A stretch of DNA of 64,000 nucleotides from an uncultured Pelagibacteraceae bacterium (GTDB taxonomy: Bacteria; Pseudomonadota; Alphaproteobacteria; Pelagibacterales; Pelagibacteraceae), in the NCBI GenBank assembly GCA_902588975.1, contig CACIRJ010000004.1:1-64000 (forward strand), in the 5' to 3' direction. The first letter of the stretch is position 1. Each line of letters starts with the position of its first letter. The notes under the pieces are model-generated. The model was not told the DNA's origin and searched no databases. It saw only the letters and a program-made list of their open reading frames with translations. This document shows positions 8,134 through 12,316 of this stretch, in pieces. A program made the translations under genes and the position numbers.

Positions 8134-8565
8134 TTAGTGATTAATTTTTATGTTGCTTTGAGTTTCATTCGCACTCGTTGTTTCAATCCACACCCATTCA
8201 CCATCATGATCTCTACAGGCTGTATTGTCATACATATTATATTCAGCTCTTCTAATTAAAACCTCAAGATAGGTTCTACAAAAATATCCTTCTAAATTAA
8301 TAAAAGTAGTTTTTGGAATTATGTATCCTTTGTAAGATCCGCTTTTCCACAAATGTTTCTTTCCATCTGGATTGGTTTCTAGTGCAAGCATCAAATTCTC
8401 TGTTGCTATCTTAATTTTAGAATTTGTCATTCCACTATATAATCTCTCTTCCAAACCTTCATGTTTGGCTAAAGACTGTCCATTGAAAATTATAAATAAA
8501 ATTAATACAAAAAGCCCCAATTTAAATTGGGGCTTTTCAAATTTGTTTATGTGTTTTTTAAGCAT
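8134..8565 (-). CDS. 17-kDa surface-antigen-like exported protein
   Basis: A small exported protein. After MLKKHINKFEK comes a hydrophobic stretch ending NGQSLA, a plausible signal peptidase I site with no lipobox cysteine. The mature part has the pattern of the rickettsial 17-kDa surface antigen C-terminal domain: an ALE..PDG segment, a Gly..IIP segment, a YFCRTY segment and a final TACRDHDGEW. The usual function of this domain is an outer-envelope protein of unknown mechanism. The chosen ATG at 8565 overlaps the upstream gene stop by 8 bases; an ATG at 8595 would overlap more. A 28-bp palindrome lies inside the signal-peptide codons. Confidence 0.65.
   Translation of the reverse strand: MLKKHINKFEKPQFKLGLFVLILFIIFNGQSLAKHEGLEERLYSGMTNSKIKIATENLMLALETNPDGKKHLWKSGSYKGYIIPKTTFINLEGYFCRTYLEVLIRRAEYNMYDNTACRDHDGEWVWIETTSANETQSNIKINH
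8510..8537 (-). terminator. Perfect 28-bp palindrome, intrinsic terminator inside a coding start
   Basis: Two 14-base arms, AAAAGCCCCAATTT and its exact complement, abut with no spacer. RNA from either strand would fold into a GC-tipped hairpin ending in a U-run. On the minus strand the hairpin is followed by further Ts, so it looks like the terminator of the coiled-coil protein gene that ends at 8558. It sits within codons for EKPQFKLGLF of the next gene. Confidence 0.7.
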
Positions 8566-9901
8566 CAATATCTGCTTCATTAACAACACCATCATTATTT
8601 ATATCAAGATTTACTGTTTCCCAGCCACTATCAACACCAACGCCTGGTTTAACGTTTTCAATAGTTCTTGCTAATTCTGTTTCTGTATTAGCTATATCAG
8701 TATTAGCATTATTGATATCTGTCTCCAAGTTAGCAATATCTTTCGTAGAATTTAATATCTCACTCTCTAAAGTTTCCACTTCGGTTTGAAATATATTTTG
8801 CTCACCCTGGGTTATTGTAATTTGAGCTTCAGTTTCAGCAACACTAGCATTAATAGTATCAATTTGAATTTGAATGGTTGCAACTTCTTCCTCAGTTAAA
8901 TCTGTATTATCTAATTGATTATTTAAATCATTAACTTGATTATTTAAATCATTTAGCTGATTAGTCAAAGTTCTTACTTTTGTTTCAAGAGTAGAAATTG
9001 TAGTTAACTTAGCTTCAATAGCTTGAGTATCATCTGTAATTTGATTGTTCAAAGTTTCAATTAACTGGTTTTTTGCAATTATTTGATTGCTCAAATTAAT
9101 TATTTGATTTTGTAAATCAAAAATACCAGTTTCATACGGATTACCAAAATTAGCTTGTAAAGCTCCAACATATGCTGGAAGGTCTTGTGCCTTGGCAATA
9201 GCTACATATGTTTTTACTCTTTGGCCATGATTTACAAAGTCTTTAGAATAAACACTATCACTTACCCAGCCACTTTTAACTAATGATAAACTCTCTTTTT
9301 TAATTAATTGTTTAGAAACTTTATTGATTCCCTCAAAAAATTTATCATCAGCTTTTGAAATTCTATAAGCTAGTTTATCCTCTGCTTTTTTTATTTCTTT
9401 ATCTGGATATTTTTTCTTGATTATTTTCTTAGCTGCTTTTTGATATTTGTTTTGAGCTTTTGCAATTGATTTTGCATATTTTATAAAGGCTTTATCAAGC
9501 TTCTTATCAATTTTTTTTGTAAACTTAGTTGATTTCTTTTCAGCTTTCTCTATTTCATTTTCAGCCTTTTTTGCATCTTTCTCAGCTTTTTTAGATGCTT
9601 TCTCTGCTGCTTTTTCAGCTTCTTTAGATGCTTTCTCTGCTGCTTTCTCAGCTTCTTTAGATGCTTTCTCTGCTGCTTTCTCAGCTTCTTTAGATGCTTT
9701 CTTGGATTCTTTAGATTCTTTACTGTTTCCCTTATCTTTGCCTTTATCTTTATCCTTTTTAGCGTAAGCTACAGAATCAAATTCAGTAATATTTGTAAAC
9801 TTTGCAACCAATGTACTGTTAACCAATGAAAATGAAAAAACTGTAGCAATCACTAATTTTAAAGACTTATTTAATAGTCTTTTGTATTGTTTATTTTTCA
9901 T
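8558..9901 (-). CDS. Secreted repeat/coiled-coil protein with C-terminal EF-hand-like motif, probable ECF sigma target
   Basis: No family recognised. The 447 residues start with a basic N-terminus and a hydrophobic stretch, with possible cleavage after SVAYA (residue 47). A Lys/Asp/Glu-rich low-complexity part follows, with three near-identical 11-residue units (core EAEKAAEKASK, about 70-104) plus a degenerate one. Next come a Lys-rich helical segment and a central globular-looking part (GWVSDSVY, VNHGQRVKTYVAIA). A long Gln/Asn/Thr-rich coiled coil spans about 260-425. The C-terminus DINNDGVVNEADIDA fits a calcium-binding loop of the dockerin/EF-hand kind. The Shine-Dalgarno AAGGAG lies just before the ATG. 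It faces the ECF sigma gene and has a promoter matching the one before that gene, so sigma control is likely. Role: perhaps envelope or surface structure, unproven. Confidence 0.75.
   Translation of the reverse strand: MKNKQYKRLLNKSLKLVIATVFSFSLVNSTLVAKFTNITEFDSVAYAKKDKDKGKDKGNSKESKESKKASKEAEKAAEKASKEAEKAAEKASKEAEKAAEKASKKAEKDAKKAENEIEKAEKKSTKFTKKIDKKLDKAFIKYAKSIAKAQNKYQKAAKKIIKKKYPDKEIKKAEDKLAYRISKADDKFFEGINKVSKQLIKKESLSLVKSGWVSDSVYSKDFVNHGQRVKTYVAIAKAQDLPAYVGALQANFGNPYETGIFDLQNQIINLSNQIIAKNQLIETLNNQITDDTQAIEAKLTTISTLETKVRTLTNQLNDLNNQVNDLNNQLDNTDLTEEEVATIQIQIDTINASVAETEAQITITQGEQNIFQTEVETLESEILNSTKDIANLETDINNANTDIANTETELARTIENVKPGVGVDSGWETVNLDINNDGVVNEADIDA
9590..9700 (-). repeat. Tandem 33-bp coding repeat
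   Basis: Three 33-base units lie end to end (9590-9622, 9623-9655, 9656-9688) and are followed by the first part of a fourth. Units differ by about one base (a T/C difference in the first). They are in frame and encode an 11-residue Glu/Ala/Lys repeat of the coiled-coil protein. The near identity suggests recent duplication by slippage or unequal recombination, so copy number probably varies between strains. Confidence 0.85.
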
Positions 9902-9925
9902 GTTTTTTCTCCTTTTGGTTAACTA

Positions 9926-9950
9926 GACGTATCAAATTAACATTTATTCG
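9926..9950 (-). promoter_or_regulatory. ECF-type promoter of the coiled-coil protein gene
   Basis: Read on the minus strand, CGAAT (9950-9946) is followed by exactly 16 bases and then CGTC (9929-9926). The CGTC core is a frequent -10 element of ECF sigma factors. The start site would fall near 9919, leaving a leader of about 18 bases that contains AAGGAG before the ATG at 9901. The same arrangement occurs in mirror image toward the sigma gene. Confidence 0.6.
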
Positions 9951-9960
9951 ATCGAATAAA
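9943..9960. promoter_or_regulatory. 18-bp palindrome carrying two back-to-back -35 elements
   Basis: TTTATTCGATCGAATAAA is a perfect dyad. Each arm contains one CGAAT, and each CGAAT is the upstream element of one of the two divergent promoter matches. It could serve only as paired -35 boxes, or also bind a regulator. Confidence 0.6.
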
Positions 9961-9977
9961 TCACTTTTTTATTCGTC
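9953..9977 (+). promoter_or_regulatory. ECF-type autoregulatory promoter of the sigma gene
   Basis: CGAAT (9953-9957), exactly 16 bases, then CGTC (9974-9977). This is identical in elements and spacing to the minus-strand copy. The predicted start lies near 9984, about 30 bases before the sigma ATG at 10015. Positive autoregulation through such a promoter is common for ECF sigma / anti-sigma pairs. Confidence 0.6.
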
Positions 9978-10014
9978 TTATATTATATGAAGTCTGATGT
10001 AATATGTTAGTCGA

Positions 10015-10530
10015 ATGAATGAAAAAAATAGGAAAGAATTAATGATATTAATGCCTAAATTAAGAAGATATTGCTATTCCCTTACAAATAATAAGGATTT
10101 AGGGGATGATTTATTACATGATGCAATTGTAAAAATTCTGTCAAAATTCCATTTATTAAAAATTGAAAATTTTAACGCTTATATATACAGGCTGATATCT
10201 AATACTTGGAAAGATAATCTTAGAAAAAAGTATACAAGAAATGAAATATCAATTTCAACTGAAGGTATTGAAAAGAATCCTGCATTAACTATCAATGAAA
10301 ATGATAACCTTGATTATATATCTGCAAAAGATGATGTTTTTGAAAAAGTTATAAATTTATCTGAAAAATTAAAAGAAACCTTAATGCTAGTAACTGTGCA
10401 AAAAAAAAGTTACAAAGAAGCATCAGAAATTTTACAGGTTCCTATCGGAACAATCATGAGCAGAATACATGAGGCAAGAAGAATTTTAAATGAAGTAAAT
10501 AACGAATCCATCAAAAAGAAAAAATTATGA
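10015..10530 (+). CDS. ECF-family RNA polymerase sigma factor
   Basis: A 171-residue sigma-70 family protein with only regions 2 and 4. Region 2 spans about residues 8-65, with LRRYCYSLTNN, DDLLHDAIVKI and the core/promoter-binding AYIYRLISNTWKDNLRKK. Region 4 spans about 115-165, with the helix-turn-helix SYKEASEILQVPIGTIMSRIHEARR written here as overlapping pieces SYKEASEILQVP and GTIMSRIHEA. The length and domain content are typical of ECF factors. The gene overlaps the anti-sigma start by 4 bases (ATGA). A mirrored promoter pair lies just upstream, shared with the coiled-coil gene. Signal and subgroup cannot be determined from sequence alone. Confidence 0.9.
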   Translation: MNEKNRKELMILMPKLRRYCYSLTNNKDLGDDLLHDAIVKILSKFHLLKIENFNAYIYRLISNTWKDNLRKKYTRNEISISTEGIEKNPALTINENDNLDYISAKDDVFEKVINLSEKLKETLMLVTVQKKSYKEASEILQVPIGTIMSRIHEARRILNEVNNESIKKKKL

Positions 10531-11135
10531 ATATTGACGATATTAAATTACAATTATATGTCGATGGAGAATTAGACACTAAAGATAATATTGAGGTTGA
10601 AAAATTTATACAAGATAATCCTTCTGCAAAAAAAAAAGTTGATGAATATAGACAGATTAATAATTTATTATTTGAAAAATACAAATCTATAGAGCAGGAA
10701 AATATTCCTCAAAGAACTATAGACCTTTTGATCAAAGAAAAAAAATCTATTTTTCAAAAATTTTTTAATTATGAAATTAAATTAGTATATGCTCTGGCAA
10801 CAGCTTGTGCAGTGTTAATTGTTTTTGCAGTTTCAAACTTTAATTTCAATAATCAAAATTTAAAAAATCTAAATGCTCAAAGTAAAACATCTATTCTTAC
10901 TGAATTGAATAATATCATTGGAGAAGAAAATATATCCACTCTAACCGCTAATATTAATCAGTTAAATATAAAATATAAAACTAAGAGAGAATTTACAAAT
11001 AAAGCAAATGAAAACTGTAAAGAAATACAATTTTTTGACTTTAAATTAAAGGATATAAATGTTGATGAAGCAATATTTTGTGAAGACAAATTAATTAAGC
11101 TTAAATTTTATAAAGGAGATTTAAAGCCTATTTAA
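10527..11135 (+). CDS. Membrane-anchored anti-sigma factor
   Basis: The 202-residue protein starts with a cytoplasmic segment like anti-sigma domains: LQLYVDGELDTKDNIEVEKF, then a helical DNPSAKKKVDEYRQIN. It lacks the HxxxCxxC residues of zinc-containing anti-sigma factors. One transmembrane helix follows (LVYALATACAVLIVFAVS, about 88-105). The C-terminal domain of about 95 residues is probably periplasmic and would be the signal-sensing part; it has two cysteines that could form a disulfide. It is translationally coupled to the sigma gene. Its role as the inhibitor is inferred from position and the N-terminal pattern. Confidence 0.8.
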   Translation: MNIDDIKLQLYVDGELDTKDNIEVEKFIQDNPSAKKKVDEYRQINNLLFEKYKSIEQENIPQRTIDLLIKEKKSIFQKFFNYEIKLVYALATACAVLIVFAVSNFNFNNQNLKNLNAQSKTSILTELNNIIGEENISTLTANINQLNIKYKTKREFTNKANENCKEIQFFDFKLKDINVDEAIFCEDKLIKLKFYKGDLKPI

Positions 11136-11144
11136 AAGTAGGGA

Positions 11145-11172
11145 AAAAAGGCGCCCTTTCGAGCGCCTTTTT
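11145..11172. terminator. Bidirectional intrinsic terminator between the anti-sigma gene and recA
   Basis: AAAAAGGCGC and GCGCCTTTTT pair over an 8-base loop. The A-run on one side and T-run on the other allow it to end both the rightward sigma operon and leftward recA transcription. It lies between the two convergent stops. Confidence 0.9.
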
Positions 11173-11191
11173 AATAACTAAAAGTTATCTG

Positions 11192-12316
11192 CTAATTTTT
11201 TTTAGTAGGAATTTCTTCTTCTTTTTTTTGAGCCTCTACTTTTTCCTCGCTTAGTGGATTTCCCTCAATTTTCTTTGAGATCACACCAGCCTTTTCTCTG
11301 ATTGCCATTTCAATTTCAGCAGCGGCTTTAGGATTTTGTTCAAGGTAAAGTTTCGCATTTTCTCTACCTTGACCAATTTTTTCACCTTTATAAGCGTACC
11401 ACGCTCCAGATTTCTCAACGATATCTGCTTTGGCACCTAGGTCTATTAGTTCCCCTACTTTACTAATTCCTTTTCCATACATTAAGTCAAACTCAACAAC
11501 TTTAAATGGTGGAGCAACTTTATTTTTCACAACTTTAACTCTTGTTGTATTACCAACGATATTATCTTTATCTTTGATTGCTCCAATTCTTCTAATATCC
11601 ATTCTAACTGATGAGTAGAATTTTAAAGAATTTCCACCTGATGTTGTTTCTGGGCTTCCAAACATAACACCAATTTTCATTCTAATTTGGTTAATGAAAA
11701 TAACCATTGTATTAGTTCGTGAAATTGAGCCTGTTAATTTTCTCAATGCTTGAGACATCAATCTAGCTTGCAAACCAACATGAGTATCCCCCATATCGCC
11801 TTCAATTTCAGCTCTTGGCGTTAATGCAGCTACAGAGTCCACAACAAGAACTGACATTGAGCCAGATTTAATTAATGTATCAGTAATTTCTAAAGCTTGT
11901 TCACCTGTGTCTGGTTGAGAAATTAGCAACTCTTCAGTATTTACACCTAATTTCTTTGCATACACTGGATCTAAAGCGTGTTCTGCATCAACGAAACCAC
12001 AAATTCCGCCTGCCTTTTGAGCTTCTGCAACCACTTGTAATGCTAAAGTAGTTTTTCCTGAAGACTCTGGTCCATAAATTTCAATAATTCTTCCTTTTGG
12101 TAATCCACCAATCCCCAAAGCAAGATCTAAGCTTAAAGATCCAGTTGAGATAGACTCAACATCCATAGCTTTTTGCTCACCAAGCTTCATTACTGAGCCT
12201 TTTCCAAAGCTATCTGTAATTTGGCTGATTGCTGCGTCCAATGCTTTATTTTTCTCTTTGTTTTCCAATTCTTTATCTTTTGCGGTTTTCACCACTTTTA
12301 GGTTATTTTTAGTCAT
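11192..12316 (-). CDS. recA: Recombinase RecA
   Basis: Forms ATP-dependent filaments on single-stranded DNA for homologous recombination and for triggering cleavage of UmuD/LexA-type proteins. The 374 residues carry Walker [10 protein letters not shown] (about 82-90), LVVDSVAAL Walker B, the [11 protein letters not shown] segment leading into the L2 loop, and a charged C-terminal tail. The N-terminal extension before ALDAAISQI is slightly long. It follows tolC with a 107-bp gap that holds a dyad (AAATGT-AC-ACATTT) resembling a sequence before umuD. A shared terminator closes it downstream. Confidence 0.98.

Follow-up and report, generated by a model that had tools for sequence, protein, structure and literature searches.

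Probable back-to-back promoters of an ECF26-like sigma factor between its gene and a divergent coiled-coil protein gene in a Pelagibacteraceae accessory cassette

Between the gene for an ECF sigma factor and a divergently oriented gene for a coiled-coil protein, an uncultured Pelagibacteraceae bacterium carries the motif CGAAT-N16-CGTC on both strands in mirror image. The question raised by this locus is what reads the 52-bp element, and with what consequence for the two genes. The window, i.e. the whole stretch of 64,000 nucleotides that was analysed, belongs to contig C4 of a 990,656-base, 29-contig assembly estimated to be 77% complete. We consider it highly probable that the element consists of back-to-back promoters for the adjoining ECF sigma factor. 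The features of the locus are:

8134–8595, minus strand: 153-aa ORF with a signal-peptide-like segment, a member of the same accessory insertion
8508–8539, minus strand: terminator-like hairpin 3' of the coiled-coil gene
8558–9901, minus strand: divergent coiled-coil protein, 447 aa (ORF translation and structure model)
9909–9912, minus strand: GGAG resembling a Shine-Dalgarno sequence before the coiled-coil gene, conserved across four genomes
9926–9929, minus strand: predicted -10 CGTC of the coiled-coil-gene promoter (pattern and four-genome alignment)
9946–9950, minus strand: predicted -35 CGAAT, extended CGAATAAA, of the coiled-coil-gene promoter (pattern and four-genome alignment)
9942–9961, no strand: perfect 20-bp palindrome ATTTATTCGATCGAATAAAT, formed by the abutting -35 regions
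9944–9959: inner 16 bp of the palindrome, TTATTCGATCGAATAA, invariant in four genomes
9953–9957, plus strand: predicted -35 CGAAT, extended CGAATAAA, of the sigma-gene promoter (pattern and four-genome alignment)
9974–9977, plus strand: predicted -10 CGTC of the sigma-gene promoter (pattern and four-genome alignment)
10015–10530, plus strand: ECF sigma factor, 171 aa, with Sigma70_r2 and Sigma70_r4_2 (family models)
10527–11135, plus strand: putative membrane anti-sigma factor, 202 aa (start overlapping the sigma stop, ATGA; hydrophobic segment; N-terminal likeness)

Pattern search placed CGAAT-N16-CGTC at 9953–9977 (+) and 9926–9950 (-), which confirms the original prediction of the motif on both strands at 9926–9977 with the same N16 on each side. 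The two CGAAT elements stand head to head, 2 bp apart (9951–9952). They had been described as two promoters sharing one palindrome of 18 bp; the palindrome actually measures 20 bp, and while both -35 regions do form it, they abut and have no bases in common. By itself a perfect 20-bp palindrome is unremarkable in this 28% GC window, where 0.35 are expected and 13 palindromes of at least 16 bp, this one among them, are found. A first-order model predicts 0.029 occurrences of the motif in a window and 0.45 in a genome, and a search of all 990,656 bp revealed a third exact copy (C3:86575), antisense inside an unrelated gene. A scan of the window with (C/G/T)GAATA-N14..16-CGT(C/T) returned the mirror pair and one site inside another ORF. 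The relaxed mirror geometry RACG-N16-ATTC-N4-GAAT-N16-CGTY was present in two genomes among the 297 of the family, each of which has the sigma gene, and its reversed control in none of the family genomes listed; at the level of the class it occurred in 2 of 240 genomes, the window's and one other (L093, at G740:C75:18589-18640).

The sigma factor scored above the cut-offs of Sigma70_r2, Sigma70_r4_2 and the NCBIfam sigma70-ECF model, and its profile was matched by solved ECF sigmas. It lies outside its nearest curated family, PRK12511 (86 bits versus a cut-off of 185), and the named relatives of its gene are in the uncultured Pelagibacteraceae records AG-390-I17, AG-920-I09 and AG-447-C08, in agreement with the original assignment to SAR11. 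It shows 32% over 164 aa to the RpoE6 region on pSymA of Sinorhizobium meliloti, where rpoE6 and ecfR6 were assigned by their position next to the SMa0142 promoter, the record having no gene table. The ORF at 10527–11135 contains a single hydrophobic segment around residues 82–108 and a weak, below cut-off resemblance to Pfam zf-HC2, and its N-terminus resembles the EcfR6 region (24% over 70 aa, E-value 5e-4 in a 16-kb search); its product is probably an anti-sigma factor.

The 447-residue product of the divergent gene possesses a signal-peptide-like N-terminus, a repetitive Ala/Lys/Glu stretch and two long predicted helices (260–330 and 337–417), and is presumably secreted. Its structure model (mean pLDDT 60.6, pTM 0.41), used for the statement on long helices only, has confident long helices at about residues 261–410. 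Pfam and NCBIfam provided no usable function for this protein, the coiled-coil background lying below the cut-offs, and no protease family matched. A single EF-hand/dockerin-like loop, DINNDGVVNEAD, is encoded near its C-terminus (8570–8605, -) and is invariant in three aligned genomes; calcium binding by this loop is possible. In none of the four genomes that carry the sigma gene does a GGAG lie within 20 nt of the start of this gene. Scanning of 8450–11250 for sigma-70-like sites gave 18, versus 16.0 in shuffles. None lies on the plus strand of the intergenic gap, whose lone site (10/12; 10010–9982, -) points to the coiled-coil gene. Its -10 box is kept in AG-390-I17 and changed in two of the four genomes aligned, and the site could provide some basal transcription of the coiled-coil gene.

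The four genes at 8134–11135 constitute an accessory insertion between alaS and recA. The latter was found in 29 of 41 genomes of the genus, and in 24 of 28 (the window's own left out) alaS is directly beside it; of the remaining four neighbourhoods, three run into a contig end, and in one (L059) no alaS was seen. No match to any of the cassette genes was found in these 28 neighbourhoods, the three cut ones included. Three genomes (G304, G306 and G172) whose RecA is identical to that of the window lack the cassette at the recA site, and it thus comes and goes among close relatives. At the right edge, sequence common with the empty site starts at about 11140, ahead of the recA terminator. The 153-aa ORF adjoins the coiled-coil gene in four carriers, as judged by eye from ORF lists, and its first codons traverse the terminator-like hairpin of that gene. 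Its C-terminal pattern (FCR.Y, ACR..DG.W) is reminiscent of the 17-kDa class of small bacterial surface antigens, a likeness for which Pfam and NCBIfam gave no supporting match.

Orthologues of the sigma factor with at least 80% identity are present in three further genomes (G192, G464 and G501). The family search matched 3 of 297 genomes at an E-value of 0.001, namely the window's, G192 and one with a distant ECF, and the genus search matched 6 of 399, the window's included and three being distant ECFs. No new carriers appeared among 110 genomes drawn around G192, and no relatives of the sigma factor were found in viral contigs. The coiled-coil gene accompanies the sigma gene in all four carriers; in the family, with six first-look candidates scored per genome and among the matches listed, it was found in 2 of 247 genomes, both of them sigma carriers. 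Comparison of related strains had been put forward as a check that might refute the prediction, and it did not do so: in the four carriers the gene pair is kept, both promoters and their N16 are identical, and the spacers diverge. Specifically, in the alignment of the gap all 24 element and palindrome positions (the 18 bases of the four elements and the 16 bases of TTATTCGATCGAATAA, overlaps counted once) are invariant, versus 49 of 89 positions elsewhere (Fisher p = 5e-6, with columns treated as independent), and 12 of 28 in the spacers. Because two of the four sequences differ little, the conservation has a limited depth of about three lineages.

A SAR11 search for CGAAT-N15..17-CGTC before genes had also been suggested. 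In the four carrier genomes it returned 15 matches: eight are the mirror pairs, one precedes a second coiled-coil gene, and the other six either fall within genes or abut a start codon so closely that a leader would not fit. With the reversed control pattern the four genomes gave 33 matches, so that there is no genome-wide enrichment; the bare motif is not rare, and the evidence therefore lies in placement and conservation rather than in frequency. The ninth copy (G464, L041:638-662) follows the terminator of one coiled-coil gene and precedes the next, 23 nt before the ATG of the latter; the corresponding distance for the coiled-coil gene of the window is 24 nt. It reads TCGAATA-N15-CGTC, with T-rich terminator sequence in place of the other arm of the palindrome. 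It is no independent test of the CGAAT and CGTC bases, since both were required by the search pattern. The assignment of the coiled-coil gene as a target of the sigma factor, made in the original prediction, is strengthened by a second such gene with a motif copy of its own. G464 has at least two coiled-coil genes in tandem (L041 1–2077, which is G464:C12, and the start of L042, which is G464:C14), and both contigs end within a coiled-coil gene.

What kind of sigma factor would recognise such a sequence is suggested by the ECF26 group, for which a consensus of GGAATA (-35) and GT (-10) has been given (PMC6180224). Eight 5'-mapped ECF26 promoters of S. meliloti in Table 1 of that paper, chosen as the rows under RpoE1, RpoE3, RpoE4 or RpoE6 that show GGAAT or CGAAT, all fit (G/C)GAAT-N16/17-(C/T)GT(C/T), and the proposal that CGAAT-N16-CGTC is the recognition sequence of the sigma factor agrees with them. 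One, the SMc01022 promoter, carries CGAATAAA...CGTCTAAT, with C as its first base (PMC6180224). Rows common to RpoE2, with elements of the GGAAC type, were left out of the comparison. Seven further rows of the table fall outside the strict form; two of these fit a looser one (SMc02156, with A first, and SMa0139, with T first and CGAC), and rpoE6, rpoE3, SMc04046, SMb20556 and an sRNA fit neither, several of the non-fitting rows being called RpoD- or RpoH-like by the authors (PMC6180224). If the last printed base of each row is taken as the transcript start, transcription begins 8–10 nt downstream of the -10 for seven promoters and 12 nt downstream for the eighth (PMC6180224). By analogy, transcription would begin at about 9985–9987 (+) for the sigma gene and about 9916–9918 (-) for the coiled-coil gene, approximately 70 bp apart; the starts near 9919 and 9984 that had been put forward differ from these by 1–3 nt.

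The arrangement was also sought beyond the SAR11 group. A four-sequence sigma profile matched in 101 of 240 class genomes at an E-value of 1e-6, the window's included, and the best 19 loci besides the window's were examined for upstream promoters. The pattern (C/G/T)GAATA-N14..16-CGT(C/T) occurs within 350 bp upstream of the sigma match at nine of these, against 0.07 expected, and is absent from the sigma strand at the other ten. Back-to-back pairs exist at four (L078, L081, L086 and L087), against 0.0000 expected; both expectations come from base shuffles, which are blind to dinucleotide content. An earlier, looser pattern over 470 bp had given nine forward matches among the 19 loci, with 1.36 expected. 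In the four pairs the -35s are 8, 8, 21 and 24 bp apart, compared with 2 bp in the window. At these loci, and at a fifth without a pair (L074), the divergent frame reads by eye as secreted, with a repetitive N-terminus and then a subtilisin-like part; the divergent gene in an Aminobacter MSH1 plasmid record is annotated as an S8 peptidase. Five plasmid homologues were inspected from 500 bp upstream to 50 bp into the sigma gene. GGAATA...CGTT is found on the divergent strand in two (L095 and L097) and GGAATT...CGTT, on the sigma strand only and 273 bp upstream, in a third (L094); L096 and L098 have no such promoter. The sigma start of L097, which has no gene table there, was guessed, and L098 was measured from its upstream small gene.

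Several other explanations of the element have to be weighed. That short motifs have met by accident in a 28% GC genome gains something from the frequency of palindromes of this length and from the loose motif, which genome-wide is at or below its control frequency. It is already contradicted by the four-carrier alignment. Further arguments against it are that the spacing is the same on each side, that a second coiled-coil gene has a copy, that 295 of 297 family genomes lack the mirror geometry, and that the motif agrees with mapped ECF26 promoters; chance can practically be dismissed. The palindrome might otherwise be the operator of a separate dimeric regulator lying between ordinary promoters, with CGTC incidental, and it does have the classical layout of an operator, being a perfect 20-bp palindrome placed centrally between two divergent genes, its inner 16 bp invariant. 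Yet CGTC at its fixed N16 varies no more than the palindrome does, mapped ECF26 promoters have a -35 similar to the half-site, and four homologous loci have two such -35s 8–24 bp apart. Since TCGAATA-N15-CGTC precedes the second coiled-coil gene of G464 without the other arm, the palindrome is most simply two abutting -35s; on the strength of this one-armed copy the operator, a very improbable reading, was rejected.

An explanation that deserves somewhat more credit, while still unlikely, holds that the promoter of the coiled-coil gene and its copies work, and that the rightward promoter is weak or silent, the sigma gene being transcribed mainly from a housekeeping promoter. The difference between the leaders, with GGAG in front of the coiled-coil gene and none within 20 nt of the sigma start, would suit this, as would the mapped rpoE6 start of S. 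meliloti, which has no ECF26 motif even though RpoE6 drives the divergent gene (PMC6180224). Against it, the four carriers show no variation in the rightward CGAAT-N16-CGTC, the gap contains no sigma-70-like site on the plus strand, and the motif is upstream of the sigma gene in 9 of 19 homologues.

Back-to-back promoters thus remain the preferred explanation, and the best reading of the locus is an autoregulated, ECF26-like sigma/anti-sigma pair that drives itself and a divergent secreted protein from an accessory cassette. Each promoter would be made up of CGAATAAA (-35), 16 bp between CGAAT and CGTC, and CGTC (-10), and this sigma factor presumably uses both. Release of the sigma factor by the membrane anti-sigma factor, encoded in the sigma operon, would allow the holoenzyme to transcribe rightward into the sigma and anti-sigma genes, as positive feedback, and leftward into the gene for the secreted coiled-coil protein, as the main output. 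With a start near 9986, the opposite -35 would lie at about -40 to -36, beside the bases held by sigma region 4 and beneath the upstream side of the polymerase. Holoenzyme footprints are such that two polymerases should not fit together, and the geometry makes their mutual exclusion at the 52-bp element, as originally proposed, likely. That a single site of 52 bp would compete for the cellular pool of sigma factor, as opposed to occupancy, is unlikely. For five bidirectional promoters of Escherichia coli, whose geometry is different, basal activity is described as too low for competition, which appears once one direction is substantially activated (PMC12825309); since both directions here need one sigma factor, competition should matter only at high induction.

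The fused -35/-35 palindrome may act as a built-in brake on autoactivation, a tentative idea that we regard as rather doubtful. As one sigma factor drives both directions, the two would be strong together, and exclusion would set in only then; autoactivation would be untouched at low level and capped at high induction. Sigma factor and target would then be produced at a constant ratio, which the target's Shine-Dalgarno sequence would shift in favour of the target. If this were true, few self-limiting stress circuits would be smaller, and this one would operate in cells that are among the most streamlined free-living ones.

SAR11 cells carry few regulators. A search of the open-licence literature found no paper on an ECF regulon in SAR11 or Pelagibacter and, by titles and the starts of abstracts, none on this locus or on abutting -35s of an ECF sigma factor. 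The locus supplies a defined promoter sequence together with a sigma/anti-sigma pair and a target, testable in E. coli or in vitro without culture of the organism. A second, distantly related ECF sigma/anti-sigma type in SAR11 is accompanied by one-strand arrays of small genes (32–95 aa), each behind its own TGAATA-N15-CGT(T/C) and often right after a terminator-like T-run. There are five copies at L015 3294–4373 (G281), four at L017 5579–8866 (G614) and six at L018 6352–10189 (G411), against 0.01–0.02 expected per array locus, and none at L016, whose contig has just 632 bp upstream of the sigma gene. By eye, many array proteins are signal-peptide-like, and the neighbours of this type look like trypsin-like proteases, MORN-repeat and caspase-like proteins. 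With these arrays, the promoter code may give access to a group of envelope or secretion responses of SAR11.

Among known systems, the bidirectional promoters of E. coli are similar in that the symmetry of the DNA permits polymerase to bind either way; they differ in having -10 bases in common and starts mostly 18, 10 or 23 bp apart (PMC12825309), whereas here the symmetry is in the -35 region, the sigma factor is an ECF and the starts would be about 70 bp apart. The anti-sigma factor of EcfG (ECF15) is NepR. No NepR or PhyR model scored above its cut-off among the four ORFs searched, the sigma factor weakly matching the PhyR sigma-like domain model just below the cut-off, and the sigma factor's neighbour has a membrane segment. 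EcfG is likewise an ECF sigma factor with a GAA-type -35 and a CGTT -10; its promoters have AAC in the -35 and CGTT in the -10 (PMC8103513), compared with CGAAT rather than GGAAC, and with CGTC, in the eight mirror-pair copies.

The closest resemblance is to the ECF26 systems of S. meliloti (RpoE6/EcfR6/SMa0142 and the RpoE1 and RpoE4 promoters), with which the locus has in common a two-domain sigma factor, a downstream membrane anti-sigma factor of similar N-terminus, a -35 of (G/C)GAATA and a -10 of mostly CGT(C/T) separated by N16–17, and an adjoining gene among the main targets, the regulons being mostly small (PMC6180224, PMC3511301). The ECF26 promoter is present as CGAATAAA-N13-CGTC on both strands, with C rather than the consensus G as first base in all eight mirror-pair copies, and the downstream ORF has both the N-terminal likeness to EcfR6 and the one membrane segment. 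In place of a divergent serine protease or an upstream lipoprotein there is a coiled-coil protein, for which the search for protease domains gave none, and the abutting -35s make a palindrome. Such neighbours are described as widespread in ECF26 and not obligatory, the contexts of rpoE3 and rpoE4 being different, and RpoE6 raises the divergent serine protease gene SMa0142 with a log change of 4.7 (PMC6180224). Judged by its promoter layout and its likeness to RpoE6 and EcfR6, the locus would work like an ECF26 locus and very probably belongs to that group. The four class loci with pairs (L078, L081, L086 and L087) likewise have mirror promoters between the sigma gene and a divergent, secreted-looking frame with a repetitive N-terminal part, and differ in having GGAAT throughout and CGTT in seven of eight promoters. 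Since such pairs recur in the class, the present arrangement appears to be a tight variant of a recurring ECF26-like design, in which a coiled-coil protein takes the position of the protease.
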